Positions 1,844 to 39,459 of a stretch of 39,459 nt of DNA are shown one piece after another. A program made the position numbers and the translations under genes. The notes beneath the pieces are model-generated. The model worked only from the letters and a program-made list of their open reading frames with translations. It was not told where the DNA came from and ran no database searches. Position 1 is the first letter of the stretch. The number at the start of each line of letters is the position of its first letter. Source of the DNA: a virus; the IMG/VR virus record IMGVR_UViG_3300048597_000622, positions 1 to 39,459 of that record; one strand, 5' to 3'.

Positions 1844-4330
1844 TCAGCCTCTCAGAAAACATTGGTCGTAATCGGGGACCACTGCCGAGCCTGCATAGGC
1901 CACGGTGAAGCTCACGAGCTTGCCGGCACCGGAATTAGTGAAGGTTCCCGAAACGGTGCCGGCGCCCGGCTCAAAGCTGTCGGCGTACCAGTCAGCACCG
2001 GTCGCAAAGACCGTGCCATCGGCAAGCAGCGTGGCCTGGCGGATGCCGCCGATCGATGTCGCGCCCGTCGCGCCGAAACCGCCGTCGAGCGAGACCGACT
2101 GGCCGGTGCCGAGATAGTGCCGGATCTGCTGGCCAAAGCCGACGGTGATCTGCCCGACCGCCGACGGCAGGCCAGTGATCTGCGTCGCATAATCGACCGT
2201 GTTCTGCGTCGCCAACGCGCCTTGGCCCGAAATGCCGGCGGCGATGTTCGCGCCGGTGACGTCGGCGTTGTTCGCAGGCTTGCCACCGCCGCCGACCTGC
2301 GATCCCCAATCGGCGACGTTCTGCGTCGCCAGCGCGCCCTGGCCTGCGATCGCGGCGGCTGTGTTGGCGGCGGTGACATCGGCATTGTCCGCCGGACGGC
2401 CCGATCCGCTCACGCCGCTCCATGCCAGCCCCGCCGCCGTCGTCGTCACCGGGCCGATGATCCGCCGCGCCCCGGTGAACGGCCCCAGGCGATAGCTGAC
2501 CGCGATTTCATACGCCGTCGACGGCAGCACTGCGGTGATCTCGACCCGTTCGACATTGGGCAGATAGGCACCGTTGCCGATCCAGCCCACTTCGGCCGCC
2601 TGCCCCGAAACCCACAGCCGGTATTCGATCACCACCGCGTCGATCGGCACGCTCGCTGCCGCGCCGGTGATGATCAACGCCGGCGTCACCGTCGCGCCCG
2701 ATACCAGGCCCGCGCCCGACAGGCTCCACGCCACCGCGCCCGGCTGCGGCGGCACCGGCGGCGTCGATGTGCTCGCTGTCGGCGGCGCCACCCCGGTCTG
2801 GCCCAGCGCAAAGGCGTGCTTGGCAAAGGTCTCGCTGCGCGCCGTCAACGTCACGCCAAGGCCGGCGGCGTCGATCTCGCGGTTGCCGATGATGATGTCC
2901 TGGCCGTTCAACCCGACCTCGGGCAACGCGACGCGGATGCAGTCGCCCGGGCGATAGCCGAGCCAGCGCAGCTTGAGCGGCAGCACGATGGGCCCGAACT
3001 CGCGGGCGTCCTCGATGTCATACCGCGCCAGCGTCGCCGCCTGGTCGAGGTCCTGGACCAGCGAATAGGTGATCTCGCGGCTGCGCAGCCCGCCATCGGT
3101 GGTGACGTGCGCCGCAACGGTCACCGGCGCCGCCGGGATGACCTCCCAGTCATGCGCCTCGCTGCGATAGCGCGGGACAACGCTGTTGAACCGGTCGCGC
3201 CGGCTGGTTGTCGCCGTAACCTTGACCTCGCCGATCAGATCGTCGGTTGTCACGGTCGCCAGGGCGACGCGCGGCGTTTGCACCGTACAGCTCAACATCG
3301 CGCCCAGGTGCATCGGCTTGCCGCCGCCGGCCTGCAGCATGACTTTCAAGGCCGCCCATTTGTTGTCAGCGCTGGTGATGACGCCGCCAACTTTCCAGCC
3401 ATTGGCATCGGCGACATTGGCGCCCTCGACATAGGCGCGGACATCGATGCCGGCGATCGGCGCGCCGATGCCGATGACGCGCTTGCCGTTCTGGTAGCGG
3501 CCGAGCGCAAAGGTCAGCCCGTGAAGGTACGGGTTTTCGCTATAGACGAAGGTGGTTTCGTCGTTCGATCGACATGCCCCCGATCCGCCCGGATAGGTGC
3601 TGTCGAGGCGCGGATCGTACACCGCGACGCCCTGCAGCACCCAGCGCGGTACCGGCACGCCCTGGGCATAGAATTTGCCCTTCTGGTCATAGCGCAGCGT
3701 CCACATCGCCGCCGCCAGTCCGCTCATCTTCGCCGCCGTCGTCCACCCCGGCGGCAAGGTGCCGCCCGGCGTCACGCGCAGCGCGGCCGATTCGGGCGAC
3801 GCCCCCAGCTGCTGCGTCTGGAACATCCAGGTCGCATAGGTGCCGATCGCCGCGCCGCTCGAAAATGCCACCGGCACCCGGTCGGCGGCAAAGCTCTCGA
3901 TCGCCTGCACAGGCCCGGCGCACGACAGCGCGACGACAAAGGTCTGCAGATCGGGCAGCGAATAGCCGGCGGTGTTGTGCGTCCGCCGATAGATGATGTT
4001 GCCGCCGGTCGCCGTCCGCCCGATGACATAGGGCAGGCCGGCGTCCTTGTCGGCCTTGAACCGCGTTGCCGATCCGCCCAGCAGCGGCGGCCGCGCCGTC
4101 AGTTGTGCCGCCACCGACAGCCCGGCGGCGGCCGCCGTGGCGATGCTCGCCACCGTCGCCGCCGCTGAAATGAAGCCCCCCGTGGCACTCGCCAGCGCCG
4201 CCGCCGATCCGGCGGCGGCGGCCGATGCCGTCGCGCCCAGAACGCCGGCGCTCGCCAGCGCGCCGACCCCGGTCGCCGCCAGGGCGACGACGCCGACAAT
4301 CAGCGCGGCGGTGCGCAGGCCCTTGCTCAC
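1844..4330 (-). CDS. Tail tip / host-specificity protein
   Basis: An 828-residue protein with a hydrophobic Ala/Gly-rich N-terminal region (about 4-85), a long beta-rich middle, and a C-terminal part holding two copies of a 39-residue repeat (motif GxPAxNADVTxAN followed by GQGALATQN; DNA at 2201-2284 and 2318-2401). This build and the position after the NlpC/P60-like gene match central tail tip or receptor-contact proteins of lambda-like and GTA-like tails. The start is the GTG at 4330, whose GTGA overlaps the preceding stop; a longer reading would overlap that gene. The receptor is not predictable. Confidence 0.75.
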   Translation of the reverse strand: MSKGLRTAALIVGVVALAATGVGALASAGVLGATASAAAAGSAAALASATGGFISAAATVASIATAAAAGLSVAAQLTARPPLLGGSATRFKADKDAGLPYVIGRTATGGNIIYRRTHNTAGYSLPDLQTFVVALSCAGPVQAIESFAADRVPVAFSSGAAIGTYATWMFQTQQLGASPESAALRVTPGGTLPPGWTTAAKMSGLAAAMWTLRYDQKGKFYAQGVPVPRWVLQGVAVYDPRLDSTYPGGSGACRSNDETTFVYSENPYLHGLTFALGRYQNGKRVIGIGAPIAGIDVRAYVEGANVADANGWKVGGVITSADNKWAALKVMLQAGGGKPMHLGAMLSCTVQTPRVALATVTTDDLIGEVKVTATTSRRDRFNSVVPRYRSEAHDWEVIPAAPVTVAAHVTTDGGLRSREITYSLVQDLDQAATLARYDIEDAREFGPIVLPLKLRWLGYRPGDCIRVALPEVGLNGQDIIIGNREIDAAGLGVTLTARSETFAKHAFALGQTGVAPPTASTSTPPVPPQPGAVAWSLSGAGLVSGATVTPALIITGAAASVPIDAVVIEYRLWVSGQAAEVGWIGNGAYLPNVERVEITAVLPSTAYEIAVSYRLGPFTGARRIIGPVTTTAAGLAWSGVSGSGRPADNADVTAANTAAAIAGQGALATQNVADWGSQVGGGGKPANNADVTGANIAAGISGQGALATQNTVDYATQITGLPSAVGQITVGFGQQIRHYLGTGQSVSLDGGFGATGATSIGGIRQATLLADGTVFATGADWYADSFEPGAGTVSGTFTNSGAGKLVSFTVAYAGSAVVPDYDQCFLRG

Positions 4331-4767
4331 AGAAGACGCCCAAGCACCGACCAGGCGGCGACGAATTCGATCGGCTGGCACACCGTCGCGCCCTCGGCAT
4401 CCTCGTGCCACATCAGCACCCGGCCGTTGCCCATCGCTACCGCCAGCGCGCCGAAATCGTCGACGCCGGGGATCATCAGCAAATCGCCGACAACCGTCGC
4501 TGCCGGTTCCGTCCGCGCCAGCCCCTGGCCGTCAACCGCTTCGGCCAGGGACGTAAACCCTGCCCGCGCCAGTGCCCGCCGCGCACCGAGCAGGCTCGAA
4601 TAACTCCCTGCCCGGGCGATGCGCGGCCGCAGGCCGAGCTTGCGCAGGTGAAACACCGCCATCCGCGCACAGTCGTCCTTGCCAAAGGCGAACGGCCGGC
4701 CCTGAAAGCGATCGAGCGTCGCCTGCGCGGCCGCGACGCGGCGAACCATGATTGGCTGGACTTTCAT
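4327..4767 (-). CDS. NlpC/P60-like (DUF6950-type) tail protein
   Basis: A 146-residue protein with the pattern of small phage cell-wall peptidase-like tail proteins: GRPFAFGKDDCAR near residues 23-35 holds the Cys expected at the nucleophile position, and a later GDLLMIPG stretch fits the core sheet. In GTA- and lambda-like tails this slot is taken by a peptidase that may help the tail through peptidoglycan. A conserved His after the core is not obvious, so activity is unproven. The start at 4767 makes a TGATG overlap; Met7 (4749) is an alternative. Confidence 0.6.
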   Translation of the reverse strand: MKVQPIMVRRVAAAQATLDRFQGRPFAFGKDDCARMAVFHLRKLGLRPRIARAGSYSSLLGARRALARAGFTSLAEAVDGQGLARTEPAATVVGDLLMIPGVDDFGALAVAMGNGRVLMWHEDAEGATVCQPIEFVAAWSVLGRLL

Positions 4768-5417
4768 CAGTCGAAAGCCCGTTCGAATTGCTCACCCGAA
4801 CGACCGCCGCCGAAGCTGCTGCCGAAGGTCACCGCGCCGGCCACCGGCTGCTGGCCCCAGTAAATCGTCTGCTCGATGCCGGTGATGTCGAAAAACGCCG
4901 TCTCGCCCGGCCAGATCGACTGGTGAAAGGCATCGGACAGCTTGGCGCCCTCGTCCTCGTCGAACAGGCGTTCCATGACGCTGACGACCTGGTACTCGAC
5001 GCTGCGCCCCTCGGCGCCGGCGCTGATCACCGGCACATCGACCTCGCCAGCAAAGACCAGGTAAGGGTCACCCAGCGGCGTGCCGGTGGCGCGGTCGACG
5101 GCACCCAGCCACAGCTGCACCCCGGCACCCTGCATCGCCGCGCCGGCCAGCGTGCCGGCGGCGGTGTCGTCGGGGGGAATGATGACGATGTCGAACGCCG
5201 GCGCCTCGTCGCCGACGCTATCGGTCAGCGCACTGATGGCCCCCAGCACGCCGAATGTCGGGTCCTCGCCGGTATAGGTCTCGCCGCCGAACGACACGAC
5301 GCCGCTGCCATCGAGCAGGCGCAGCGTTGCCGCCGGCAGCGCAATCCGCACCGCGCCGAAGACAATCGGATTGTCGGTCGCCAGCGCCGCCTCGAGGCCG
5401 GCCGAGAGCGCCGTCAT
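4767..5417 (-). CDS. Minor tail protein
   Basis: A 216-residue protein lying between another minor tail protein and the NlpC/P60-like protein, the place of the GTA gp13/DUF2163-type or lambda L-type tail tip components. It has alternating beta-rich segments such as VRIALPAATLRLLDGSG and a Gly/Ser-rich C-terminus. The family assignment comes mainly from gene order. It starts 28 bases after the preceding stop and ends in a TGATG overlap. Confidence 0.6.
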   Translation of the reverse strand: MTALSAGLEAALATDNPIVFGAVRIALPAATLRLLDGSGVVSFGGETYTGEDPTFGVLGAISALTDSVGDEAPAFDIVIIPPDDTAAGTLAGAAMQGAGVQLWLGAVDRATGTPLGDPYLVFAGEVDVPVISAGAEGRSVEYQVVSVMERLFDEDEGAKLSDAFHQSIWPGETAFFDITGIEQTIYWGQQPVAGAVTFGSSFGGGRSGEQFERAFD

Positions 5418-5445
5418 CGCGCGGCCTCCGGCTCGCGGTCAAACA

Positions 5446-6048
5446 TCACGCGCGCTCCGCAATGCGGAACTTGGGCCACAGGAACGGGTGCGCCTCATGG
5501 TCCCACGACAGGTTCTCAAAGGTGATCTTGCCGACAATCAACGGCGCGACCAGCTCGACCGCGCTGCCATTGTCGGGGCTGGCGCGAAGCATCGGATAGA
5601 TCGGCACCGCCATCGCGCCGGCGCTGGCGCTGGTCAGCGCCATGCACTGGTGAAGATACGACCGCGCGCCCTTGGTGACCGAAAGGAACTGCCCCTTGCG
5701 CACCTGATAGCCAAAGCCGACGCCGGAAATGTTGAGAGTCGACCCGGTCTGGCCGGCGCCGGCGATCACCGGCGACCCCGGCGACGGCGTGTTGGTGATC
5801 AGCCCGGGTTGCGGCCAGGGATAGGACGCGCCCTGCGACCGCGCCTGCAGCATCGCCACCTGCCAGTCGAGCCAGGCCGGGCCTTCGCGCACCAGTGGCA
5901 GCTCGACCGTCAGCGCCCAGCGCGACCCCAGCCGCTCGAGTCGCTGATCGACGCCCAGCCCCGTCGACGGCGCCTGGTCGACGCCCATGTCGAGAAATTC
6001 CGGCCTGGCCTTGCGCCAGTAGGGCGTCGACGGCAACGCAATGGTCAT
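5446..6048 (-). CDS. Minor tail protein, after tape measure
   Basis: A 200-residue protein directly after the tape measure gene, the slot of distal tail or lambda M-like proteins. It opens with PSTPYWRKARPEFLDMG and ends with a beta-rich KFRIAERA tail. No catalytic motif is seen. The role in the tail tip is inferred from order; I do not recognise a family with certainty. Confidence 0.6.
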   Translation of the reverse strand: MTIALPSTPYWRKARPEFLDMGVDQAPSTGLGVDQRLERLGSRWALTVELPLVREGPAWLDWQVAMLQARSQGASYPWPQPGLITNTPSPGSPVIAGAGQTGSTLNISGVGFGYQVRKGQFLSVTKGARSYLHQCMALTSASAGAMAVPIYPMLRASPDNGSAVELVAPLIVGKITFENLSWDHEAHPFLWPKFRIAERA

Positions 6049-6076: not shown

Positions 6077-8005
6077 TCATGCCAGTCTCCGCCGTGCCTG
6101 CCGCGCCCGATCGTCGGCCGCCAGCGCCTTGCCGCCCATCGCGCCGCGCACCGCGGCCTGACCCGCCGCCGCGTCGATCCGCGCCATGACGTCCTCGGTC
6201 ACCAGCGCGCCGCGCAGGTCGAATGTCTGGTAAATCGCGCCCCGGCCGCCGGCGGCGCCGCTGCCGACGCGCAGCGCATGGTTGGGGATGACGCTGCCCG
6301 ACATGCCCGGCACGACGATCTCGGGCCCGCGCTCGCCGACCAGGTACGGCACGCCACCCATCACCGGGCCGCCATCGGCACGCGCGCCCCCGAACAGCCC
6401 GCTGATGCTGCTGAACAGTGTCCCGAACGACGTGCCTTGCCTGCCGCCCGACAGGAAATTCATCAGCCCCGACTGGATCCACGCCTCGCCGATGCGCGAA
6501 AAAACGTTGATGACCTTGTCGCCCACGTCGCCGCTCTGGGTGATGATCGATGCCAGCCCGAATGCCATGTCGGCAAGAAAGGCTTCGCCGGCCGCGATCG
6601 CCTGCGGGTCGAAGATCTCCATCTGCGAAACATCGCCGACACTTGTCGCGATTTCGCCCAGCCGGGCGTCGATCGCTTCCAGATTGACCAGCGCGGCCGA
6701 TGCGTTGGCCAGCGTCGGCACGTTCGGGTCGACCTTGTCGAAGCCCACCCGCAGCTCGGCATCGGTGTAAATCCGCTTGCCCGGCTTGGTGGCCCTGGCC
6801 TTCGACCCTGGCGGCGGCCTGACCGCCACCGGCGTAACGATGCCGCCGACAACGGCGGGTGTGGTGCCGACGGTGCGGCGGGATTCCTGCGCGGCGAGCG
6901 CTGCCGAATAGCGGGCGTGCGCTTCGGTCTCCTGCGCGCGCAGCATCGCCGCACCGTTGAGGAACGATGGCAGGCCGCTCGCCTCGGCGTTCTCGCGGCG
7001 GCGCTTGGCCTCGACATATTCGCGACCATAGACCTGCACCGGTCCGCCGGCCTTGCCCAGCGCCGTCGTCCGGTCGAAGTCCGATGTGAACTGCCCCAGA
7101 AAGCCTTCGTTGGCGCGGATCTCGGCCAGGCCCTTGGCATAGGCGAGCAGGCTGGCCATGTAGCCGACCGCTTCGCCGGCAGCATTGCCCAGCGCGATGA
7201 TCGCGTCGGCGTTCTGGCCGATCGCCGTCGCCATCTGTGCGGTCATGACCTTGCCGACCGCGTCGGCCTTGTTGCCCAGCGTGTCGAGGTTGTCGATCGT
7301 CTCCTTCGACAGCTTGATGCCGAGCAGCTCGTTCGCCGCGGCCAGGTCGTTGATGCCCTTCGATCCCTCACGCAGGAACGGCAGCAACGCGACGCCGGTT
7401 TCGCCGAACAGCTTTTGCGCCGCCGCCGCCTGGCGCGCCGGGTCGGGCACTTTGGCCAACCCGTCGGCAACCTCGCCGAGCAGCACCTCGAACGGCTTCA
7501 AACGGCCGTTGCTGTCGGCGATATCGACGCCGATCGCCTTGAAACTGTCGGCGGCGGCCTTGTTGCCGTTCGCCGCCTTGCCCGTCGTCTTCTGGAAACT
7601 CTCCAGCGCGGTGTCGGCCTTGCTGACATCGACCCCGACCTTGGCGGCCCCCAGTCGGAAATCCTGGAGCGCGTCGGTGCCGATGCCCAGCGCTTCGGAC
7701 TGGTTCTTGATCGACGACGCGCTTTCGACCGCGGCCCGGCCGATCGCCAGCAACTCGCCGGGAACGCGCCCCAGCAGCGTCCCCAAAGTCGTGCCGATCG
7801 TGCTGCCGATCGTGGTGGCGAGCAGCTGGCTCTTTCTGCTGATCGACTGGCTGGTGCGCGAAAAACTGTCCTCGATCCGGTTCAATCGGTCATCGACTTG
7901 CGTCGCCGAACTTCCCATGATGCCTACAAGTTGTTCCAGTTGCGTGCGTGCGGCCTCGATGTCGGCCTTGATCGCAAGCGTCAGGGTGCGCTGGGTTTCG
8001 GCCAT
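6077..8005 (-). CDS. Tail tape measure protein
   Basis: A 642-residue protein with an N-terminal coiled coil (about 1-60), Gly/Thr-rich hydrophobic stretches, long Ala-rich helices, and a C-terminal motif common in tape measure proteins (ADGGPVMGGVPYLVGERGPE). Tape measure proteins set tail length, roughly 1.5 angstroms per residue, so a tail near 100 nm would be expected. Its start at 8005 lies only 29 bp from the divergent start of the cargo pair at 8035; in related phages the tail chaperone gene would directly precede it. Confidence 0.85.
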   Translation of the reverse strand: MAETQRTLTLAIKADIEAARTQLEQLVGIMGSSATQVDDRLNRIEDSFSRTSQSISRKSQLLATTIGSTIGTTLGTLLGRVPGELLAIGRAAVESASSIKNQSEALGIGTDALQDFRLGAAKVGVDVSKADTALESFQKTTGKAANGNKAAADSFKAIGVDIADSNGRLKPFEVLLGEVADGLAKVPDPARQAAAAQKLFGETGVALLPFLREGSKGINDLAAANELLGIKLSKETIDNLDTLGNKADAVGKVMTAQMATAIGQNADAIIALGNAAGEAVGYMASLLAYAKGLAEIRANEGFLGQFTSDFDRTTALGKAGGPVQVYGREYVEAKRRRENAEASGLPSFLNGAAMLRAQETEAHARYSAALAAQESRRTVGTTPAVVGGIVTPVAVRPPPGSKARATKPGKRIYTDAELRVGFDKVDPNVPTLANASAALVNLEAIDARLGEIATSVGDVSQMEIFDPQAIAAGEAFLADMAFGLASIITQSGDVGDKVINVFSRIGEAWIQSGLMNFLSGGRQGTSFGTLFSSISGLFGGARADGGPVMGGVPYLVGERGPEIVVPGMSGSVIPNHALRVGSGAAGGRGAIYQTFDLRGALVTEDVMARIDAAAGQAAVRGAMGGKALAADDRARQARRRLA

Positions 8006-8034
8006 GCTGCCCCCCTTCGCTGGAGAAATTGAAG

Positions 8035-8259
8035 ATGCGGAAAATCGCCTGGGTCATCGCGCTGCTCTGCAACGTCGTCGCCGTCGTTGTTGCGGCCCTT
8101 GGCTTCAAGCTGGTCGGAACGCTGGCAGGCAGCGGCAATGACGCGATGGCGAGCGGCATGGGCGTGATGATCGGCGTCGTCCCGATGATCTACGCCCTGG
8201 CGCTGTCGATAATCCCGACCTGCGCCGCGCTGTGCGTCGAATTCATTTCTCGCGACTGA
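8035..8259 (+). CDS. Small two-helix membrane protein of the KAP cargo pair
   Basis: A 74-residue protein with two clear membrane helices (about residues 4-30 and 44-68) joined by a short Gly/Ser/Asn loop. GGAG at 8022-8025 is well spaced before the ATG at 8035; the upstream TTG at 8029 is a worse start. It ends 11 bases before the start of the KAP NTPase gene, so the two are probably one operon. It lies opposite to all neighbouring tail genes. No family is recognised. Inference: it could anchor or be gated by the NTPase, or form a holin-like pore in an exclusion device. Confidence 0.65.
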   Translation: MRKIAWVIALLCNVVAVVVAALGFKLVGTLAGSGNDAMASGMGVMIGVVPMIYALALSIIPTCAALCVEFISRD

Positions 8260-8270
8260 ACAGGGGTTTT

Positions 8271-9767
8271 ATGGCCGATACGATCTATGACATTTGGGCT
8301 GGCGATAAGCTGGGCCGTCAGGAAGAGGCTGCCGAGCTCGAGGCTTTCCTCTTCCGCGAGACCGAATATCTGGCAGGTAAGAATCGCAAACAAGGATTTG
8401 TGCTGGGCCTCGACGCACCTTACGGCGAGGGCAAAAGCTGGTTCCTTGAGCGGTTCGCCAAGCAGTTAGCGTTCAATCATCCAGTCGCCCGTGTCGACGC
8501 ATGGGCGGACGATACTGGAAACGAGCCGTTGATTGCTCTCATGGCCGCTGTCGAGGATGCTCTTGAGCCTTACCTCAAGAAGAAAGAAATCAAGGATCAC
8601 TGGCGAAGAGCCAAGGGCTCATTAATTCCCGTCATCGGCAAAACGATCACCGCCGTCGCTGGCAAAGCCGTAGTGCGTTATGCTGGCGAGGAGCTTGGCG
8701 ATCACGTCAGAGACATATTGAACGATGGGGGCTCATCAGACACCGGTGCTAGTGCTTCCACCGAAGCCGGAGAAGCAGCGCTAGCCGAAATTGACAAGCT
8801 GTTCGACCGGCTCGGCGAAAGAATGCTGAGCGATTATCGCAAGAGGAAAAAGTCCACCGCAATCTTTAAGGAACGCCTCGCAAGCGTAGTTCAGGCACTC
8901 CCCGCCACCACGATGCATGCGCCGATTTACATTATCGTTGATGAACTCGACAGATGTCGTCCCAGCTATGCCATCCACATGCTCGAAGAAATTAAGCACA
9001 TCTTCGATGTTCCTGGCATTGTGTTTGTCATCGCGCTCCACGGTCAGCAGCTCGAAAGAAGCATAAAGGCAGTCTATGGCGCCGACTTTGAGTCGGACGA
9101 CTATCTTCGACGCTTTTTCTCACGCCGCTACCGTCTCTCTCGCCCTTCTGTGCTGGCACTCGCAGAGGAACTGTTCAATGATATTGGCGTCCAGACGAGC
9201 CAATTCGCCTACCCCGAATTCAGGTACGATGGACAAATCGGCTACCATACCGCCGCGAAGCTTGTTGCGACGGTGCTTGCTGCGTGGAAGGTCAATCCTC
9301 GCCAAATATATGCTGTTATGGACTGCATTCGGCTTTTCGCATCGTCGTGGAGATTCAAAGCACCTATCGAACTTGTGCTCCTGCTGAATGCGATCGTGAA
9401 TTTTGTAAGTGGCAGACCCGAACGTTGGCAGCATGGCATTCCCGAATATGGTGAGGCAATATTCAAGATCTGGGATACGAGCAAAGCTAATCCAACGTTA
9501 ACGGCCTTTACAGCTAATCAGCTTGTCGAAGTCTATATCCGAAGTATAAATGTGCCACTGCGAGAATTTGGCAACAGAGCGGAGTTAAGTCAGCCCGTTG
9601 CTTATGTACACAACCAGTTGCAACGCGAATTCATGCTGGAACACCAGTCGCGTCAGACGACTGGACAAAATTCTGTGAGCATTATTGGGTCATACGGCGA
9701 ACGTGTTGAGCGGGTCAGTAGGTTCGTTATGCCACCGAGCCCGGAGGTTCTGAGGGGGGCTGAGTGA
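8271..9767 (+). CDS. KAP-family P-loop NTPase (cargo, possible phage exclusion)
   Basis: A 498-residue NTPase. Walker A is GLDAPYGEGKS (46-56). Walker B with the KAP signature is IIVDELDRCRP (221-231). A strand VFVIALHGQQLERSI (251-265) and the YLRRFF motif (278-283) follow as in this family. KAP NTPases are named after Kidins220/ARMS and PifA; PifA of plasmid F excludes phage T7 at the membrane. Many members carry membrane helices between Walker A and B; here that interval holds only a moderately hydrophobic stretch (about 117-137), and the membrane part may be the small protein encoded just upstream. The start at 8271 follows AGGGG. The gene is visibly more AT-rich than its neighbours, and its stop is 4 bp from the stop of the convergent tail chaperone gene. 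Defence function is inferred. Confidence 0.85.
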   Translation: MADTIYDIWAGDKLGRQEEAAELEAFLFRETEYLAGKNRKQGFVLGLDAPYGEGKSWFLERFAKQLAFNHPVARVDAWADDTGNEPLIALMAAVEDALEPYLKKKEIKDHWRRAKGSLIPVIGKTITAVAGKAVVRYAGEELGDHVRDILNDGGSSDTGASASTEAGEAALAEIDKLFDRLGERMLSDYRKRKKSTAIFKERLASVVQALPATTMHAPIYIIVDELDRCRPSYAIHMLEEIKHIFDVPGIVFVIALHGQQLERSIKAVYGADFESDDYLRRFFSRRYRLSRPSVLALAEELFNDIGVQTSQFAYPEFRYDGQIGYHTAAKLVATVLAAWKVNPRQIYAVMDCIRLFASSWRFKAPIELVLLLNAIVNFVSGRPERWQHGIPEYGEAIFKIWDTSKANPTLTAFTANQLVEVYIRSINVPLREFGNRAELSQPVAYVHNQLQREFMLEHQSRQTTGQNSVSIIGSYGERVERVSRFVMPPSPEVLRGAE

Positions 9768-9771
9768 TTAT

Positions 9772-9906
9772 CTAGCGCTGATGAGTGCGTTGTCGTCGCG
9801 CCGCCTCGCGCTCATTCCATTCGGCCGCCGCCATCAGATCGTGCGGTGTCGCGGCCCAGAATTCGGATGGTGCCCAGCCCAGCCCGCCGATCGCAAACGA
9901 CTGCAT
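9772..9906 (-). CDS. Second tail assembly chaperone (short; start uncertain, possible -1 frameshift product)
   Basis: A short frame on the minus strand encodes a peptide typical of the small chaperone that follows the GTA-gp10-like gene: core FAIGGLGWAPSEFWAATP, then a charged helix. Counted from the ATG at 9906 it is 44 residues. The family-like segment begins slightly upstream (WLRR before the Met), and this frame is open without a stop back through the end of the preceding gene. So the product may start at the TTG at 9915, or be made by a -1 frameshift from the chaperone gene. Such G/GT fusions are usual just before tape measure genes. Confidence 0.6.
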   Translation of the reverse strand: MQSFAIGGLGWAPSEFWAATPHDLMAAAEWNEREAARRQRTHQR

Positions 9907-9932
9907 CCGCCGCAACCACGGCCGATCATCGT

Positions 9933-10334
9933 CTATTTCGTCGTCGGCTTCGGCGGCTGGGCTTTCCGCTCCCCCAGCGCGGTGTAACCCCCGGTCAGGG
10001 CGTTGAATAGCAGCGGGTGGATCGCCGCCCGGACCGCCAGCAGCAGGCCGCCATCCTCGGCATAGACCAGCTCGGCCGCCCGCGCCGGCTTGATCGTCGC
10101 CAGCGCCGTGTCGCGGTTGACCTTGGCCTCGGCGCGGATGGTCGCCGCGACGATGATGCCGACATGATCGAGCGACAGCCCGCCCGCTTCGATCTGGCGC
10201 ACCAGGTCGAACAGGCTGGCGCCGGTACCGGTCTCGATTTCGGCGATTGCCGCGAAACTGGGGCGCAGCCGATAGGCCACGCCCTCGAGCTCGAGATCGA
10301 CCGCGCCGATCGCCGACGGCTTGACCGCCGTCAT
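9933..10334 (-). CDS. Tail assembly chaperone, GTA gp10-like (Phage_TAC_11 type)
   Basis: A 133-residue protein matching the gene-transfer-agent gp10-like chaperones: an N-terminal beta segment (VDLELEGVAYRLRPSFAAIA) is followed by a helical body (EIETGTGASLFDLVRQI). These proteins coat the tape measure protein before the tail tube is built. The start at 10334 makes a TGATG overlap with the tail tube gene. Near its end the run CTGGGGGAG could allow a slip into the -1 frame that encodes the next chaperone. Confidence 0.75.
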   Translation of the reverse strand: MTAVKPSAIGAVDLELEGVAYRLRPSFAAIAEIETGTGASLFDLVRQIEAGGLSLDHVGIIVAATIRAEAKVNRDTALATIKPARAAELVYAEDGGLLLAVRAAIHPLLFNALTGGYTALGERKAQPPKPTTK

Positions 10335-10768
10335 CAGGCGAGCGCGTCGACAGTCGCCGCGGCCGCCGGCATCAGCATGATGTCGATCGAGCGCAGCTCG
10401 CCCTTGTTGTGGGTCTTGCTGAACTGGGTGATGACCATCGAGCATTCGAAGATCACGTCACCCGGATCGACGCCGGCGGCACCGCCCGACCGGATCTGGT
10501 ACACCTCGGCGGTGCCGCTGTCGTAGAGCGTCTGCATCCGCTGCACGCCGTTGGTGTCGGGAAAGTCCGGCCTGATCGACAGCGAAACCGACCGATCGCG
10601 CTCGGTCGGCAGATAGGTCTTGTCGGGATAGCTTTGCTTGTCGCTGGTCTCGATCGTCGACCGGCTGGTGCTGTGCGACAGGTTGCTCTGCCCCTTCGGC
10701 GCGTTGAACGTCGCGACAACGCTGCTCTGCACCCACAGCCAATCGAAACTTGCATCACTCTTTGCCAT
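10334..10768 (-). CDS. Major tail tube protein
   Basis: A 144-residue protein of tail tube size, located directly before the tail chaperones. The pattern (SDASFDWLWVQSS, YDSGTAEVYQIRS, DPGDVIFECSMVITQFS) fits TP901-1-like tail tube proteins with alternating beta strands. AAGGAG lies six bases before the ATG at 10768 and only three before the ATG at 10771, so the second ATG is preferred. Confidence 0.75.
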   Translation of the reverse strand: MAKSDASFDWLWVQSSVVATFNAPKGQSNLSHSTSRSTIETSDKQSYPDKTYLPTERDRSVSLSIRPDFPDTNGVQRMQTLYDSGTAEVYQIRSGGAAGVDPGDVIFECSMVITQFSKTHNKGELRSIDIMLMPAAAATVDALA

Positions 10769-22794: not shown

Positions 22795-22863
22795 TGGAGC
22801 GGCCGGGAGGAGTCGAACCTCCCCGAACGGGGTGGTTACCCGTCTGCCCCGTCGGCCGGCCGC
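22795..22863 (-). tRNA. tRNA-like element (short D-arm, non-standard anticodon loop)
   Basis: On the minus strand a 7-bp acceptor stem (GCGGCCG with CGGCCGC), a perfect 5-bp T-arm with loop TTCGACT, a 5-bp anticodon-type stem with loop TAACCAC, and an encoded CCA after discriminator T can be drawn. The D region is only about 13 nt, the total is 69 nt, and the anticodon loop lacks T33 (A there). A formal anticodon would be ACC (Gly), but decoding is doubtful. The stop codon of the Mom-like gene (TAA, 22836-22838) lies in the anticodon loop. It may be a degenerate tRNA, a processing signal or a tRNA mimic. Confidence 0.5.
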
Positions 22864-23552
22864 GAAACCTTCGGGAACGGATATTCCCGCAACAATGCCA
22901 GGCGGTGAAACCGGCCCCGCATGAAGTAAATGTATCGGTGCTGGCGAAATCTGTTCTTTGTCGCCCGGTGCAAATTGTCTTTCAGATGCCTGCCGCGATT
23001 GTTGGGATGCGTCCGCAACGTCGACAACAGCATCTTGTGATAGGTCTCGCCGTCAAGTTCGAAGAACTCGGTAACGTGACTGCCGAAATATCGGAACCCC
23101 GCCGCCTGATAGACGACGCCATTGAGCCCGCACCGGCTGTCGGCAAAGCTCTGCACCGCGACCACCCCCGGCCGCAACCGCGCGATCGCGCGAAGGCAAT
23201 AGGCGATCGCCCGACTTTCGGTGTTACGCGGACAGGCGTCGTCGACCCACATCCGGTTGAGCTCGAGCAGCGCGCGGTAATCGGCGACGCGGACAATGCG
23301 CAGCGAGCCCTTGGGATTGATCGGCCACCCAAACTGCAGCACGCCGAGCAGCTCGCCGCCGACGAATAGCCCGAAGTTGAAGATCGTGTTGTTGACGAAC
23401 CGGCGGCTGTAGTGCCGGGCGACGATGATTGCCCTGGCGGTTGCGACCGGGATTAGCGCAACGTGAAAGGCATCGGTGCCGAAACCGACAACCTTGCCTT
23501 CGTCGCTGCGGCGGAATGCCGGCGCTGCGCCAGTAGCGTCTAAATCCTTCAT
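22836..23552 (-). CDS. mom: Mom-family DNA adenine-modification protein
   Basis: A 238-residue protein matching the GNAT-like Mom family. Phage Mu Mom converts adenine to a methylcarbamoyl form in its DNA and so protects it from host restriction enzymes. Seen: RHYS (46-49), FGLFVGGELLGVLQFGWPIN (60-79), ELNRMWV (97-103), NTESRAIAY (110-118), QSFADSRCGLNGVVYQAAGF (134-153) and YHKML (171-175), then a basic tail RATKNRFRQHRYIYF. It lies between the HNH gene and the terminase genes, so it is expressed late, before packaging. No Com-like regulator is adjacent. Its last codons run into the tRNA-like element. Confidence 0.85.
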   Translation of the reverse strand: MKDLDATGAAPAFRRSDEGKVVGFGTDAFHVALIPVATARAIIVARHYSRRFVNNTIFNFGLFVGGELLGVLQFGWPINPKGSLRIVRVADYRALLELNRMWVDDACPRNTESRAIAYCLRAIARLRPGVVAVQSFADSRCGLNGVVYQAAGFRYFGSHVTEFFELDGETYHKMLLSTLRTHPNNRGRHLKDNLHRATKNRFRQHRYIYFMRGRFHRLALLREYPFPKVSRPADGADG

Positions 23553-26762: not shown

Positions 26763-28430
26763 ATGCTGAAAGAAAACCTTGCATTTAACCGCGCCGATCG
26801 CATCAGCGCGGTGGGGCGTGCGACACTCGCTGTAACGACGTTTGCCGCTGCGCTGGTCGATACGCCGCAACCGGCGGTGTTCGCACCCTATGTCATTGGC
26901 ATTCTAACCGCCTATGCCCTTGTTTCGATAGCGATCGCCGCCGTTATATGGAAGCGGCCGTTGTCAAAGCCGCCGATCGGGCATTGGGTTCACGTTATCG
27001 ACCTGATGGTTTTCGCTGCGTTGGTTTATCTTACTGGCGGTGTCGCCAGCCCCTTTTTCCCCGTGTATCTTTTCGCCATTTTGTCCGCGACGTTGCGGTG
27101 GGATTGGCGCGGCGCACTCGGCACCAGCGCCGCCATCATTGTGCTGTTCGTTCCCACCGCCTTCTTCGATACTGCCGGGCTCGATCCCGGTCGCGACGAT
27201 GTCCTACGTTTTGTCGTCCGCATCGGTCAGATTATCGTCGTAGGCGGGCTGCTCGTCTATATCGGGCTACAGCGCGAGCGCTATTGGCAGGAACTGCTCT
27301 TGCTGTCCCGGCCGGTCGACGCACCGGCCGGGCCGGTTGCCGATGTCATTGACACCTGTCTTGATCATGTTCGCGACTTTTTCGGGGTCTCCAGCGCGCT
27401 GTTTCTGTGGGAAATGCGCGACGAGCCCGGCTGGCGGATCGCCAGACGCGGTGAGGGCCCCGCGCTTTCTGCATTACCTACACCGGCTTGGTCAGGGCCG
27501 GTGTTTGATACTCTCACAGGATCAACTTTCGACTTTCGGGCTGGCGCTGGCGACTGCCGCCGATATGCCAGCGACGGCGAGTTAGTCACCGTTCCACACC
27601 CGCTACTCGATCCCGCACTGGCCGAGGCGTGGGGTGTCGATGAGGCTGTGATCGCATCGATCAGCAGCGACGCACTGTCCGGCTGGCTGGTGATCCCAAA
27701 GCGGGTCACGGAAGTAGATCTTTATTTGGCGCGCGCACTTTCGGTGCAATTGGCAGCCGCAGTCGATAATGCCGTGGCGACCGAAACTTGGTTGGCGGCA
27801 GCAGCGAGCGAAGAACGAGTTCGCGTTGCGCATGACCTGCACGACGGCATCCTGCAATTCCTGACCGGCCTCGCGCTTCAGCTCCGGCTGATAGAACGTC
27901 AGGTCACGACCGATCCTGAGGGCGTTCTGCAACGTATCCACACGGTAACCTCCGCGCTGCGACAGGAACAACAGGACCTTCGTCGCTTTGTCGAAGGCAT
28001 TCGACCCCATCGTGCGCCAATCCCCGATGTCGGTCAGCCACTTTCCGACCTGGTACCCATGCTGGCCGAGCAGTGGGATATCGGCATCAACGTCGAAATC
28101 ACCAACGAACCCCCGGCCAACCTTGCTGCCGAGGTCCGGCTCATCGTGCGAGAGAGCGTCGCCAATGCCGTGCGCCACGGCAAGGCGCGTCGCATGAAAA
28201 TATGCAGCAAGACCGACGATGCCGGTTACCACCTGTCCGTCGACGATGACGGCGGCGGATTCGGAACGGACGGCAGATTTACCGTTGCGATGCTGCGTGA
28301 TAGCGGAACCGGACCAGTTTCGATTCTGGACCGGGTAGAACGGCTCGGCGCTGCCTTGATGCTAGACACGAGTAATCGAGGATCGCGCTTGGAGATGTTT
28401 TTTCCCCGTATCGGCAACACCCCGGCATGA
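26763..28430 (+). CDS. Membrane histidine kinase, NarL-type (HisKA_3)
   Basis: A 555-residue sensor kinase. The N-terminal part has about six membrane helices (about 17-170). Residues about 190-340 form a GAF-like domain. The dimerisation and phosphoacceptor box is ERVRVAHDLHDGILQ, with His360 the likely phosphorylated residue. The ATPase domain shows VRESVANAVRHGKA (N box) and DDDGGGFG (G box). It autophosphorylates and passes phosphate to the regulator encoded by the next gene (ATGA overlap). It probably senses a signal in or near the membrane. Nothing marks it as phage-specific; it looks host-derived. Confidence 0.92.
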   Translation: MLKENLAFNRADRISAVGRATLAVTTFAAALVDTPQPAVFAPYVIGILTAYALVSIAIAAVIWKRPLSKPPIGHWVHVIDLMVFAALVYLTGGVASPFFPVYLFAILSATLRWDWRGALGTSAAIIVLFVPTAFFDTAGLDPGRDDVLRFVVRIGQIIVVGGLLVYIGLQRERYWQELLLLSRPVDAPAGPVADVIDTCLDHVRDFFGVSSALFLWEMRDEPGWRIARRGEGPALSALPTPAWSGPVFDTLTGSTFDFRAGAGDCRRYASDGELVTVPHPLLDPALAEAWGVDEAVIASISSDALSGWLVIPKRVTEVDLYLARALSVQLAAAVDNAVATETWLAAAASEERVRVAHDLHDGILQFLTGLALQLRLIERQVTTDPEGVLQRIHTVTSALRQEQQDLRRFVEGIRPHRAPIPDVGQPLSDLVPMLAEQWDIGINVEITNEPPANLAAEVRLIVRESVANAVRHGKARRMKICSKTDDAGYHLSVDDDGGGFGTDGRFTVAMLRDSGTGPVSILDRVERLGAALMLDTSNRGSRLEMFFPRIGNTPA

Positions 28431-29942: not shown

Positions 29943-30296
29943 ATGATCGACGCGCCTCCCGCCATCCTCTGCCAGGCCCCGCGCGCCGTCGATGGCGACA
30001 CGATCCGCTGCGCCAACCTTCCGGTCCGCGTGCGGCTGCTCGGCATCGATGCTCCCGAGCTTCCCGGCCATTGCCGCCCCGGCCGTCAGTGCACGCCCGG
30101 CGACGGCGCCGCCAGCACTCGCGCCCTGGCGGCGCTTCTGGCGCGCGGCGCGGTGTGGGTACAACCGGCCGGCCACGACCATTATGGCCGGATCCTTGCC
30201 CGGGTGCAGGCCGGCGGTATCGACACGAGTTGCCGGATGATCGCCACTGGCGCCGCCGTGCCGCGATACAGCCAGATCGGGTGCGCGGTCATTTAG
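29943..30296 (+). CDS. SNase-like thermonuclease
   Basis: A 117-residue nuclease of the staphylococcal nuclease fold. Seen: VDGDTIRC (16-23), VRVRLLGIDAPE (28-39), YGRILA (81-86). Arg31, Glu39 and Arg83 match the catalytic Arg-Glu-Arg set. It has no signal peptide, and the C-terminal helices of the usual fold are short or absent. It may degrade nucleic acid in the cell or recycle nucleotides. Start chosen at the Met just before conserved sequence; its last four bases overlap the end of the convergent replication gene. Confidence 0.8.
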   Translation: MIDAPPAILCQAPRAVDGDTIRCANLPVRVRLLGIDAPELPGHCRPGRQCTPGDGAASTRALAALLARGAVWVQPAGHDHYGRILARVQAGGIDTSCRMIATGAAVPRYSQIGCAVI

Positions 30297-31432
30297 GCCG
30301 ACGCCTCGACGACAACCCGCACTGGTGCGCCGCCGGCCGCGCCGCGCAGCTCGCCCGCGTAATTGGTCGCCACCCAATCGGCGACGAAGGCACTGGACGT
30401 GATCGCCAGCAGCTCGTCGCCGCGCCAGTCGAAGCGCAGCGGGTCGATCCACTGCCGAGCCGCCGCTTCGCCGATCCGCGCCCGGATTCGGTTTCGCAGA
30501 TTCTGCACCGGGTCGGGTTCGTCGGGGTCAGTTGCCTGGCTTTCACGAGCTGCTGGCGCCGCTGCCGGTACCACAGCCCCGAATTCGCCGTCGAGCAGCC
30601 GCGCCAGCAGGTTGAGCTCGCGGGCGTGGCCGACGTCGAACAGGGCGTCGAACGTCGCCCAAAGGTCATCCTGCCCGACAGCATTCTTTCGTCGGAACCG
30701 CCCAGCCTTGAAGCCGCGCTCGATCGTGTCGATGCTCATCAGCACCTTGCCCAGCCCCTGCGCCTCGATCGCCCGCGCCACCCCGACGCGTCGCGCCGGG
30801 TTGCGCGTCACCGGCCCCGGCAGGCCGGCCCGGTCGCGCCAGGCATCCCAGTGGGCGAACACCTGGTCGACCGGCTCGAGCTGGCGCCCCGCGGGGGGTG
30901 GTGACGGCGGCCGAGGTTCCGGCGCCACTGGCACCGGTTCAGGCACCGGTCCCCGAAACCCAGAAAGTCCGGCTTCGCGCGCACCCGCCTGTGGTGAGTG
31001 GTGATTGGTCTCTGGTACTGATACTTCTTTAGACCCGTGCAAAGGTTGCACGCCCGGCGTGCAAACAGTGCGCGCCACTGGTGCAAAGTCTGCACCGGAC
31101 GCCTGCAAAACCGGATTGGGCGAAAGCCCGCGTTTCGCTGGCACGATCGGGTGCACCATCGTTGTCGAAACCTCGCCAATCTCGCCGGCCTCCCGGCTGA
31201 TATGGCCGCTCTCGACCAGCACCCGCAGCGCGTATCGGATGGCGCGGATGCTAAGGCTGCTGCGTTTGGCGATGGCCGCCGGGCCAAGGTCGCTGCGCCC
31301 GCCGCGATGCTCCCGCGCGTCATCGGCGAGGATGGAGAGAACGGACCGCTCGCTTGGGCGCGGCCGGCGCGGAACACCGGCATCGGTAACGCTGACGATC
31401 TGGTTAGCCAGCTTGATGAGGACATTGCTCAT
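30293..31432 (-). CDS. Replication initiator with wHTH and DnaA-N-like domain
   Basis: A 379-residue protein. Residues about 25-105 form a winged HTH (SDLGPAAIAKRSSLSIRAIR followed by YALRVLVESGHIS). The middle is Pro-rich and disordered (about 150-200). The C-terminal 65 residues (NLRNRIRARIGEAAARQWID, then ITSSAFVADWVATNYAGEL) look like domain I of DnaA, which binds helicase or helicase-loading proteins. No P-loop is present. This fits a phage initiator that binds the origin with its HTH and recruits host replication proteins. It starts in an ATGA overlap with the next gene upstream. Confidence 0.7.
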   Translation of the reverse strand: MSNVLIKLANQIVSVTDAGVPRRPRPSERSVLSILADDAREHRGGRSDLGPAAIAKRSSLSIRAIRYALRVLVESGHISREAGEIGEVSTTMVHPIVPAKRGLSPNPVLQASGADFAPVARTVCTPGVQPLHGSKEVSVPETNHHSPQAGAREAGLSGFRGPVPEPVPVAPEPRPPSPPPAGRQLEPVDQVFAHWDAWRDRAGLPGPVTRNPARRVGVARAIEAQGLGKVLMSIDTIERGFKAGRFRRKNAVGQDDLWATFDALFDVGHARELNLLARLLDGEFGAVVPAAAPAARESQATDPDEPDPVQNLRNRIRARIGEAAARQWIDPLRFDWRGDELLAITSSAFVADWVATNYAGELRGAAGGAPVRVVVEASA

Positions 31433-31959
31433 GAAAACGACTGTCCGGTCAGCGTCGGCGGTGGCAGCCGGTTAAAGCGCTCGCCGTCGCGGTCGATCAC
31501 GTCGGGCACCGGCACCAGCTTGGCCATCGCCGCCAGAAAGCGGTCGTTGGCGCGCACCGCCGCCGATCGTGCCGCGCGGTCGGCGCCGTCGTCGTCGATC
31601 GGCGCCAGATGCCTGACATCGACAGGCCGGCCACAGCGCAGCGCCAGGTCGGGCCCGCGTCGCGGCGGCGGCCGGCCAGCAAGCGCTGTGGATGAGGCCG
31701 AACCTGACGCCGCCGCGAGCCGGCGCCGGCCAAGATCGGTCAGCGCCAGGATGCGCGTGTTGCAATCGGGGTAATCGGCGGTGATGACGCCATGCTCGAT
31801 CGCCTCTCGTACCAGCCGCGACGCGCTCGATGGCTCGCGAAACCCCAGCGTCTCGCCGATCAGGTCGTTGTGTGGATGCGGGGCTCCGCTGGAGATGGCG
31901 CGGTCGATCAGCGCCAGCAGCCGCAATTCGTTTGTGATTCGCACCCTGCCCCCGCTCAC
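31429..31959 (-). CDS. Winged-helix DNA-binding protein
   Basis: A 176-residue protein. Residues about 8-80 look like a winged HTH (ELRLLALIDRAISSGAPHPH, later REPSSASRLVREAIEHGVIT and LTDLGRRRLAAA). The C-terminal half is Arg/Pro-rich and ends in a short conserved-looking helix. It is translationally coupled to the replication gene (ATGA) and may assist origin binding or regulate the operon. Confidence 0.6.
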   Translation of the reverse strand: MSGGRVRITNELRLLALIDRAISSGAPHPHNDLIGETLGFREPSSASRLVREAIEHGVITADYPDCNTRILALTDLGRRRLAAASGSASSTALAGRPPPRRGPDLALRCGRPVDVRHLAPIDDDGADRAARSAAVRANDRFLAAMAKLVPVPDVIDRDGERFNRLPPPTLTGQSFS

Positions 31960-32480
31960 CGGCGCTGCTTCTTTGCCGCCCGCGCTGCGCGGCGCAGATC
32001 GGCGGTCTTTTCATCGGCCTGGTCGCACGCTCGCAATGCGTCGTCGGCCTCGCTCGGGTCGAACTTGCCATCAGCCGCAGCGCGGGCGAGCCCGGCGCCG
32101 GCCTCGAGAAACCCGGCCACCGCCAGACCAAGCCGCACATCATCGGCGGCGGTCTCGTCGTCGCTGGCAATCATTCCGATCGACGCGAGGCCGTGGCTGG
32201 CGCCGGCGGCTCCGAGCACCGCCCAGATCGACATCAGCTCGCTGCCCGATGCCTGGCGACGCTCGAGCGGGTCGCGGTGGATCAGCTTGCCCATCCGGTT
32301 GTCGCCGATGCCGGCGCGCACCGCGAGCTGCTCGATCGTCATCACCCGCCGCACCTTGCAAAAAATGCGCACCGTGTCGGCCAGGTCGTCCATGAACCGG
32401 GTGGGCGAAACGATCTGCAGGTTCCGCCCTGTTGCGCCGTCGTGTTCGGCCGCATCGTGGGGCAATGGTCGCACTGTCAT
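31956..32480 (-). CDS. HTH protein, first gene of the leftward replication operon
   Basis: A 174-residue protein with a helix-turn-helix near residues 40-75 (VRRVMTIEQLAVRAGIGDNR, then MGKLIHRDP) and a helical C-terminal half (AVAGFLEAGAGLARAAADGK). CII-like or other early regulators in phages have this layout. It overlaps the next gene by four bases and starts opposite the 32570 gene. Confidence 0.6.
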   Translation of the reverse strand: MTVRPLPHDAAEHDGATGRNLQIVSPTRFMDDLADTVRIFCKVRRVMTIEQLAVRAGIGDNRMGKLIHRDPLERRQASGSELMSIWAVLGAAGASHGLASIGMIASDDETAADDVRLGLAVAGFLEAGAGLARAAADGKFDPSEADDALRACDQADEKTADLRRAARAAKKQRR

Positions 32481-37844: not shown

Positions 37845-38350
37845 TCCCGACCCCCTTCACCGACATCCGCCGCCTGACCCGCGCGTCGGCGATGAAGGGC
37901 TTGCGCTGCCACCTTGAGCCGGAACACACTCAGGCACTCGTCACCCACCCCCGCGTCCAGGCGCTGCTCGCCGAACTCGAAGCCGAGGAAACCGCACGAT
38001 GGCTCGCCGCCCAGGCCCCCCCGATCGACGACAGCCCGCCCTTGCCCTTGTTGCCCCCGGTGCGCCAATCCTCACCCCCGCCCAGGCCGACGCCGAGCGC
38101 GGCCGCCGCGCCCGCCTCGTCCGCCTTGACCCCTTTTACCTCGATTGGCGCGCCGATCGCGGCGTCTACTGCGTTGCCTGGTATGACGCCGGGGCTCGTT
38201 CAAGACGCCGCGTCATCACAAGTGTCGGAGCTGGCGAAGGCCTTGACCCGCCAATCGAAGCACGACAGGCGCTCGCGGCTCACTTTGCCGCCTACGCCCG
38301 CCCCGCCGCGCCCCAGGTCACGACCGAGGCTGGTGTCAGCGGAATCCTGA
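37841..38350 (+). CDS. Hypothetical protein overlapping the integrase start
   Basis: A 169-residue frame starting in an ATGA overlap. The first 55 residues (FTDIRRLTRASAMKGLRCHL, then TQALVTHPRVQALLAELEAE) look real. The rest is Pro/Ser/Ala-rich and overlaps the integrase in another frame for 352 bases, so the C-terminal two thirds may be unselected. Confidence 0.45.
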   Translation: MIPTPFTDIRRLTRASAMKGLRCHLEPEHTQALVTHPRVQALLAELEAEETARWLAAQAPPIDDSPPLPLLPPVRQSSPPPRPTPSAAAAPASSALTPFTSIGAPIAASTALPGMTPGLVQDAASSQVSELAKALTRQSKHDRRSRLTLPPTPAPPRPRSRPRLVSAES

Positions 38351-39459
38351 GCCGGTACCTGTCGGAACACTGCGCCAAGCTGCGCGCGCCCCAGCTGCCC
38401 GCCGGCGCCGCCGTCCACCTCGAGGCCTTCTTCGCCGATCAGCGCCGAACCGGCGCGCTGCCGGCGTTCGTCGCCGTCGCCGATATCAACGCGCGCGTCG
38501 TCCAGCGCTACATCGCCTGGCGCCAGCGCGCCGGCGTCGTCGGGGAAACCATCAACCGCGAACTGTCGCCGCTGCGCGGCGCGCTCAACTGGGCATGGAA
38601 GGAAGAAATCATCCAGGCACGGCCGTTCATCGGATCAGTGCCCGAAGACAAATGTTCCGGCCCTCGCGATCTCGAATGGAACCACGAACAGATCGCCGCC
38701 ATCCTCGAAGCCGCCTGGTCGGACCAATGGCGCCACCACCTGCACCTGTTCACGATCGTCAGCCTTTCGACGCATTTCCGCACCGAGGCGATCCTCGAAT
38801 GCAACCTCGATCAGCAGCTGAAGGGCAACCGCTTCCACTCGTTGCGCCCGGGCGAGAAACAGACCCGCAAGCGCCGGTCGACTGTGCCGGTGGTGCCGAC
38901 CCTGGCCGAATGGCTCGAAGGTCGCAGCGGCAAGCTGATCCGCTTTCGCGTGCCGATCGCCGAGAAGAAATGGGCCGACCCCAAGGTGCCCGAATGGCAC
39001 GAGCGCGAAACCTTCTCGATCAAGACAGGATTTGCCGGCGTCATCGTGTCGGCCGGCCTGGCGCACCCCTCGCTGGGTCTGGTCGAGCCGCTGCGCGACG
39101 CCCGCGGTGACCAGGTGATTCGGCATTTCAAGCGCCCTGACCCGAAGACCGGCAGGATCCCCGAACCCGAGCCACAGTGGCGCCCGATCGGCTCGCCGAA
39201 CACGCTGCGCCACTCGCTGCACACCTATCTGCAGACGAAGGGCGTCCCCCAGGCCCAGATCGACATGGCCGCCGGCCACAGTAGCGAAAAGGGGTCAGGC
39301 AAGAATTACACCCACCTGCGCCCCGACTATCTCCGCGAATTCGCCGCCGCCATCGAAGCCTATTGGCAGGACATGGACGCCCTCACAAATGTGCATCGTC
39401 GGACCCAACTCGGACCCAAGATCATCCACCTGCCAACCGCTCGCCCGAAATCGGCCTGA
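37999..39459 (+). CDS. int: Tyrosine recombinase (phage integrase)
   Basis: A 486-residue integrase. The N-terminal part (LDPFYLDWRADRGVYCVAWY) is the arm-site or leading domain typical of alphaproteobacterial prophages. A SAM-like core-binding domain follows (about 105-210). The catalytic domain shows Arg261 (HFRTEAIL), NTLRHSLHTYL (Arg404, with Asn at the usual first His), GHSS and Tyr437 (KNYTHLRP). It inserts and excises the prophage at att sites, which are not in view. It is the last gene of the rightward early operon. The start at 37999 lies inside the preceding frame. Confidence 0.92.
   Translation: MARRPGPPDRRQPALALVAPGAPILTPAQADAERGRRARLVRLDPFYLDWRADRGVYCVAWYDAGARSRRRVITSVGAGEGLDPPIEARQALAAHFAAYARPAAPQVTTEAGVSGILSRYLSEHCAKLRAPQLPAGAAVHLEAFFADQRRTGALPAFVAVADINARVVQRYIAWRQRAGVVGETINRELSPLRGALNWAWKEEIIQARPFIGSVPEDKCSGPRDLEWNHEQIAAILEAAWSDQWRHHLHLFTIVSLSTHFRTEAILECNLDQQLKGNRFHSLRPGEKQTRKRRSTVPVVPTLAEWLEGRSGKLIRFRVPIAEKKWADPKVPEWHERETFSIKTGFAGVIVSAGLAHPSLGLVEPLRDARGDQVIRHFKRPDPKTGRIPEPEPQWRPIGSPNTLRHSLHTYLQTKGVPQAQIDMAAGHSSEKGSGKNYTHLRPDYLREFAAAIEAYWQDMDALTNVHRRTQLGPKIIHLPTARPKSA

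Follow-up and report, generated by a model that had tools for sequence, protein, structure and literature searches.

The window, as we call the whole stretch of DNA analysed here, comprises the 39,459 bp of an IMG/VR virus record. To judge by its gene content the phage is temperate, since it encodes an integrase and a CII-like protein. Inside its tail module two genes lie on the plus strand, antisense to the tail genes and wedged between a tail assembly chaperone gene (Phage_TAC_6, PF09550) and the tape-measure gene (phrog_8462). A first-pass annotation made from the letters of the sequence had described this arrangement correctly: a 74-residue membrane protein and a KAP-family NTPase, with 29 bp before and 4 bp after the pair, in a phage able to form lysogens. 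The features are given below, with reference to two related phages, L002 and L021.

6077–8005, minus strand: tape-measure protein gene (phrog_8462, 5e-23; 71% identity with L002)
8035–8259, plus strand: gene for a small membrane protein of 74 aa with two helices, antisense to the tail genes (ATG at 8035, stop at 8259)
8260–8270, plus strand: intergenic gap of 11 bp containing a Shine-Dalgarno-like AGGGG; left edge of the KAP insertion (sequence; comparison with the L002 junction)
8271–9767, plus strand: KAP P-loop NTPase gene, 498 aa, acquired single-gene moron of PDC-S20 type (ATG at 8271, stop at 9767; KAP_NTPase 1.1e-28; PDC-S20 1.6e-71)
9768–9771, no strand: right edge of the insertion, 4 bp between the convergent stops of the KAP and chaperone genes (sequence; comparison with the L002 and L021 junctions)
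9772–9915, minus strand: tail assembly chaperone Phage_TAC_6 (PF09550, 3.5e-8)
9933–10445, minus strand: upstream tail gene (weak match to the phrog_2115 tail protein, 0.0011; 72% identity with L002)
31956–32480, minus strand: CII-like protein, temperate marker
37999–39459, plus strand: tyrosine integrase, temperate marker

The tape-measure gene starts at 8005, 29 bp from the membrane gene; the two plus-strand ORFs are 11 bp apart, and the KAP gene ends 4 bp from the chaperone stop. The gene at 9933–10445 is probably a second chaperone, in a position like that of gp10 in GTA. A scan of positions 7800–10000 gave nothing terminator-like where KAP ends and, with a simple sigma-70 consensus, no good plus-strand promoter before the membrane gene. 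At the 5' end of the tape-measure gene no extra synonymous constraint hinting at an embedded promoter was observed (3/15 codons vs 31.5% overall, P 0.25). Late antisense transcription might plausibly silence the two genes, and they may be expressed in the lysogen, as had been proposed from their orientation.

Elsewhere in the window, a tRNA-Gly gene (22795–22863, minus strand) adjoins a Mom-like DNA-modification gene (22836–23552, minus strand; phrog_1384, 4e-55), and a single ORF at 23672–24547 matches the family of small terminase subunits as well as that of HNH endonucleases. A 555-aa plus-strand ORF with almost no family match (26763–28430) adjoins one of 210 aa that gave sigma-factor-like and HTH matches. 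At 30293–31432 a 379-aa protein is encoded whose C-terminus matches the DnaA N-terminal domain and which also gave weak replication-initiator matches.

The membrane gene and the gap behind it

AlphaFold2 predicted the membrane protein as two helices, spanning residues 2–31 and 37–73. In L002, whose tape measure is 71% identical to that of the window, a homologue with 66% identity occupies the equivalent position and strand. The pair gave a dN/dS of about 0.46, indicating mild purifying selection in this one comparison, and the GC3 of the window gene (0.84) is native to the phage. Because of this homologue, the dN/dS, the native GC3 and the two predicted helices, the ORF is not a chance one. 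L021, whose major tail protein is 75% identical to that of the window, carries a two-helix gene of 64 aa at the corresponding place and strand. Its product is weakly similar to the window protein (6 of 1000 shuffles reached the observed similarity; z for the transmembrane similarity about 3–4), and the L002 and L021 proteins were compared in the same way, with 1 of 1000 shuffles reaching the observed value.

Searches of phages, plasmids and IMG/VR for relatives of the membrane protein returned L002 only, and the L021 version used as query matched nothing but itself. Among more distant tape-measure relatives (L004, L005, L008–L011 and Caulobacter phage Kronos) no comparable antisense membrane gene was present at the junction. 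Since L002 keeps the two-helix antisense gene without KAP, and L021 keeps one with HNH cargo instead, the membrane gene appears to be a resident of this phage lineage, independent of KAP. The searches brought up only three phages with this type of tail, of which two are short fragments, so that the residency rests on L002 and more weakly on L021.

Small size and two helices would also suit a holin or lysis regulator, a role compatible with any reading of the KAP gene. We consider it rather unlikely for this protein: lysis-type genes are found elsewhere, with an endolysin at 735–1544 and a weak spanin-like match at 223–753, and the gene runs antisense to the late genes, the wrong orientation for being expressed late in the lytic cycle.

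The site that separates the membrane gene from the chaperone gene was found in three states. In L002 it is empty and the stop codon of the membrane gene reaches directly into the chaperone gene; in the window it holds KAP; and in L021 it holds three ORFs, all behind the two-helix gene: one for a NUMOD4/HNH homing endonuclease, one of 126 aa and one of 49 aa. These three states among the window, L002 and L021 point to the gap as an insertion hotspot in the tail module. The homing-endonuclease gene of L021 lies at 3900–4517 and the 126-aa ORF, whose family is unknown, at 3523–3903, both in the hotspot that KAP occupies in the window. The 49-aa ORF, which has no Pfam match, looks ribbon-helix-helix-like by eye, and we take it to be so.

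The KAP gene is missing at the corresponding site of L002 and L021, and its GC content is 52.8%, compared to 67% for the rest of the genome; it thus combines the two marks of a moron, absence from the relatives' site and foreign composition. The 3' end of the window's chaperone gene is unlike that of L002, as if it had been rewritten by the KAP insertion. The difference in GC3 between the membrane gene (0.84) and KAP (0.57) agrees with separate histories. Taken from these comparisons, the two genes appear to be neighbours by insertion and not a conserved two-part system.

The KAP NTPase and its relatives

The assignment to the KAP family, already made in the first-pass annotation, was confirmed by a KAP_NTPase (PF07693) match of 100.8 bits (gathering cut-off 20), with Walker A (GLDAPYGEGKS) at residues 46–56 and Walker B (DELDRCRP) at 224–231, in agreement with its account of both motifs. 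In an alignment of 49 rows, the window KAP and 48 relatives, residues G52, G54, K55, D224, E225, D227 and R228 are invariant, and the window protein keeps all of them. The best match among PADLOC models was PDC-S20 (1.6e-71, 240 bits, positions 14–341 of 464); the PifA and QatA models matched more weakly. All 49 members of the alignment matched the PDC-S20 HMM, and the PifA HMM likewise matched 49/49. A literature search found no paper naming PDC-S20 and no published test of it.

No transmembrane helix was predicted in the window KAP, in which no 19-residue segment exceeds a mean hydropathy of 1.54. The AlphaFold2 model (pLDDT 85, pTM 0.82) has a long helical insertion at residues 105–208, where some membrane-bound KAPs have transmembrane helices. 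Such helices inserted in the P-loop domain are a feature of only part of the KAP family, and their absence is therefore no obstacle to membership. A sequence search for solved structures returned no relative, but a fold search with the model did: RdrA was closest (Z 17.9 over 300 residues), far ahead of BrxC (12.9) and ORC proteins (about 12). Absences from the fold library were not counted as evidence.

The foreign composition, together with the lack of a clear promoter or terminator of its own in the window, would also fit a gene that was recently trapped, is barely expressed and has no current role. The long intact ORF with all invariant residues and the Shine-Dalgarno-like stretch right before the KAP ATG make this improbable.

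For the relatives of KAP we assembled 92 loci, 79 from a profile scan of IMG/VR and 13 from phages and plasmids; a search of the genome contigs database gave no relative of either KAP or the tape measure. A small hydrophobic ORF on the same strand was present upstream of KAP in 9/92 loci, compared to 13/92 for the antisense control, and downstream in 10/92, compared to 9/92 on the control strand. A homologue of the window membrane protein was found in none of the 92. Three prophages (L030, L031 and L042) share a block of about 1.55 kb with 77–87% identity, and their flanks are unrelated. Besides KAP itself, the block comprises some 70 bp ahead of the gene with a GAGTC..GACTC palindrome and some 60 bp behind it with a terminator-like hairpin; it is listed here as a feature of these loci.

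L030, L031 and L042, around 3900–5470: self-contained KAP moron (77–87% identity)

The block is a single-gene moron, and KAP moves between phages alone. The palindrome of these relatives is not present in the window.

A cargo operon with a dedicated membrane partner, as first annotated, would be a true two-component system in which the membrane protein acts as effector or anchor and KAP as sensor NTPase, both having been acquired together as one operon. The genes are on the same strand, 11 bp apart and likely co-transcribed. As the window KAP lacks the transmembrane helices that some KAPs carry, such as Tmn (PMC11846954), a membrane partner is conceivable. However, L002 has the membrane gene without KAP and L021 a counterpart of it, small membrane ORFs are not enriched beside KAP, the mobile unit elsewhere is KAP alone, and the composition of the two genes differs. 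The co-occurrence check suggested with the annotation found no conserved pairing (0/92), and by that standard, set in the annotation itself, the pair hypothesis fails. We rejected a conserved pair of membrane protein and KAP on three grounds, namely no partner enrichment, no homologue in 92 loci and a KAP-only mobile unit, and we give the two-component system little credence.

The KAP relatives occupy several phage sites. In L031, KAP lies at the junction of chaperone (TAC) and tape measure, in a different tail type and co-directional with the late genes; in L030 it lies between the tape measure and the distal tail, and in L042 ahead of the gene for the small terminase. A phrog_52 tail gene, which we take to be P2 D-like, converges on KAP from a distance of about 65 bp or less in 10 of the 82 non-redundant loci (L064, L072, L079, L085, L088, L090, L091, L093, L099 and L107). 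The side of this gene is a second recurrent KAP site, distinct from the A-Q hotspot of Rousset et al. Other neighbours of the relatives are integrases and repressors, and some relatives are found on plasmids, away from known defence genes. The GC content of KAP is below that of its flanks in 96% of the loci. In the tree, the window KAP stands separate from L030 and L031, on a long branch whose exact place is unsure; the tape-measure region therefore seems to have been reached at least twice. Altogether, KAP NTPases are single-gene cargo recurring at the moron sites of many prophages.

The recurrence in tail modules (window, L030, L031, and beside tail gene D in 10/82), along with the AAA+- and ORC-like fold neighbours, might suggest that KAP serves the phage itself and not defence, either in tail assembly, as an AAA+ chaperone or unfoldase, or as a replication or partition ATPase. 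It is, however, missing at the corresponding site of the close tail relatives L002 and L021 and antisense to the tail operon, and its relatives occur on plasmids, beside integrases or repressors and with unrelated tails. Such a service is doubtful.

A proposed reading and comparison with known systems

We favour, with somewhat better than even confidence, a reading in two layers: a resident membrane moron and, behind it, a separately acquired single-gene KAP moron for exclusion or abortive infection. The first layer would be the two-helix membrane gene, antisense to the late genes and kept by the phage lineage. From its position and topology, its product is most likely a prophage-made superinfection-exclusion protein of the inner membrane, similar to HK97 gp15. 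The second layer would be the KAP gene, inserted between the stops of the membrane gene and the chaperone gene. As the window copy has neither the palindrome of its relatives nor a terminator-like site, KAP is probably carried on the transcript of the resident gene in the lysogen, with its own ribosome-binding site.

For the KAP protein we predict an AAA+-like ATPase that forms rings, like RdrA and, it appears, QatA; most likely it senses a product of the incoming phage and then aborts or excludes the infection, in the manner of PifA. An ATPase ring made in the lysogen and detecting an incoming phage is favoured because of the RdrA fold, the QatA rings, the PDC-S20 match and the behaviour of PifA. 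Defence by KAP alone is by this analogy its likeliest function. The exclusion or abortive system of the first-pass annotation was thus a reasonable guess for KAP, but not for a pair.

Several points speak against the favoured reading: PDC-S20 is a database candidate only, the simple sigma-70 scan gave no good plus-strand promoter before the membrane gene, the membrane protein has no sequence kinship with HK97 gp15, some KAP relatives are plasmid-borne and not near known defence genes, and the tail lineage is represented by three phages, two of them short fragments. A further candidate reading, to which we attach a low probability, holds that the antisense, lysogen-expressed membrane gene is a docking site, which would make the place a defence hotspot of the tail module with a built-in promoter; single-gene defence genes would land behind the membrane gene and use its promoter in place of their own, which they would lose, and would come to function together with the membrane protein.

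Telling a chance neighbour from a real partner decides what to clone and test. The comparisons point to a hotspot for insertions within the tail module of one temperate phage lineage, and to KAP having arrived at the chaperone/tape-measure junction at least twice independently (window and L031). If KAP protects lysogens, it would provide a natural, compact and testable member of a widespread candidate defence family.

Among known systems, the window KAP resembles PDC-S20, a single-gene candidate defence system of KAP type in PADLOC, both in its HMM match and in being a single gene. PifA of the F plasmid is a KAP-family NTPase that senses T7 proteins and aborts infection (PMC8594841). The kinship to it claimed at first exists as a distant similarity (2.4e-14), whose match covers only positions 32–318 of 720 in the profile and is not full-length for the 498-aa window protein. 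QatA, a DNA-binding KAP protein that forms a heptamer or octamer (PMC13279940), is similar in its KAP motifs, but the NCBIfam QatA model scored 32.7 bits, far from its cut-off of 600, and the neighbours of the window KAP are tail genes, with no QatB, QatC or QatD beside it. The nearest solved fold belongs to RdrA, the RADAR ring ATPase, with the similarity limited to the ATPase part; RdrA is an ATPase of about 800 aa, and tail genes stand where its RdrB deaminase neighbour would be. Tmn has two transmembrane domains within the protein, whereas the window KAP has no transmembrane segment.

HK97 gp15 is a small membrane superinfection-exclusion protein (PMC10883804) encoded by a moron between the tail chaperones and the tape measure, and the window membrane gene shares this position and the membrane nature of the product. 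The HK97 gene is, however, co-directional with the late genes and encodes one hydrophobic segment, while the window gene is antisense and encodes two helices; their sequence score is at the level of shuffled sequences (9.0 vs a shuffled mean of 9.4). HK97 gene 23 is a ‘reverse moron’ in the late region of that phage, and antisense morons in late operons are therefore not new; the position of the locus is unusual but not unprecedented. At prophage anti-phage hotspots, such as the A-Q region of P2, the phage sites are fixed and the accessory genes vary (PMC9122126). Compared to these, the hotspot of the window is set within the tail module and follows an antisense resident gene.
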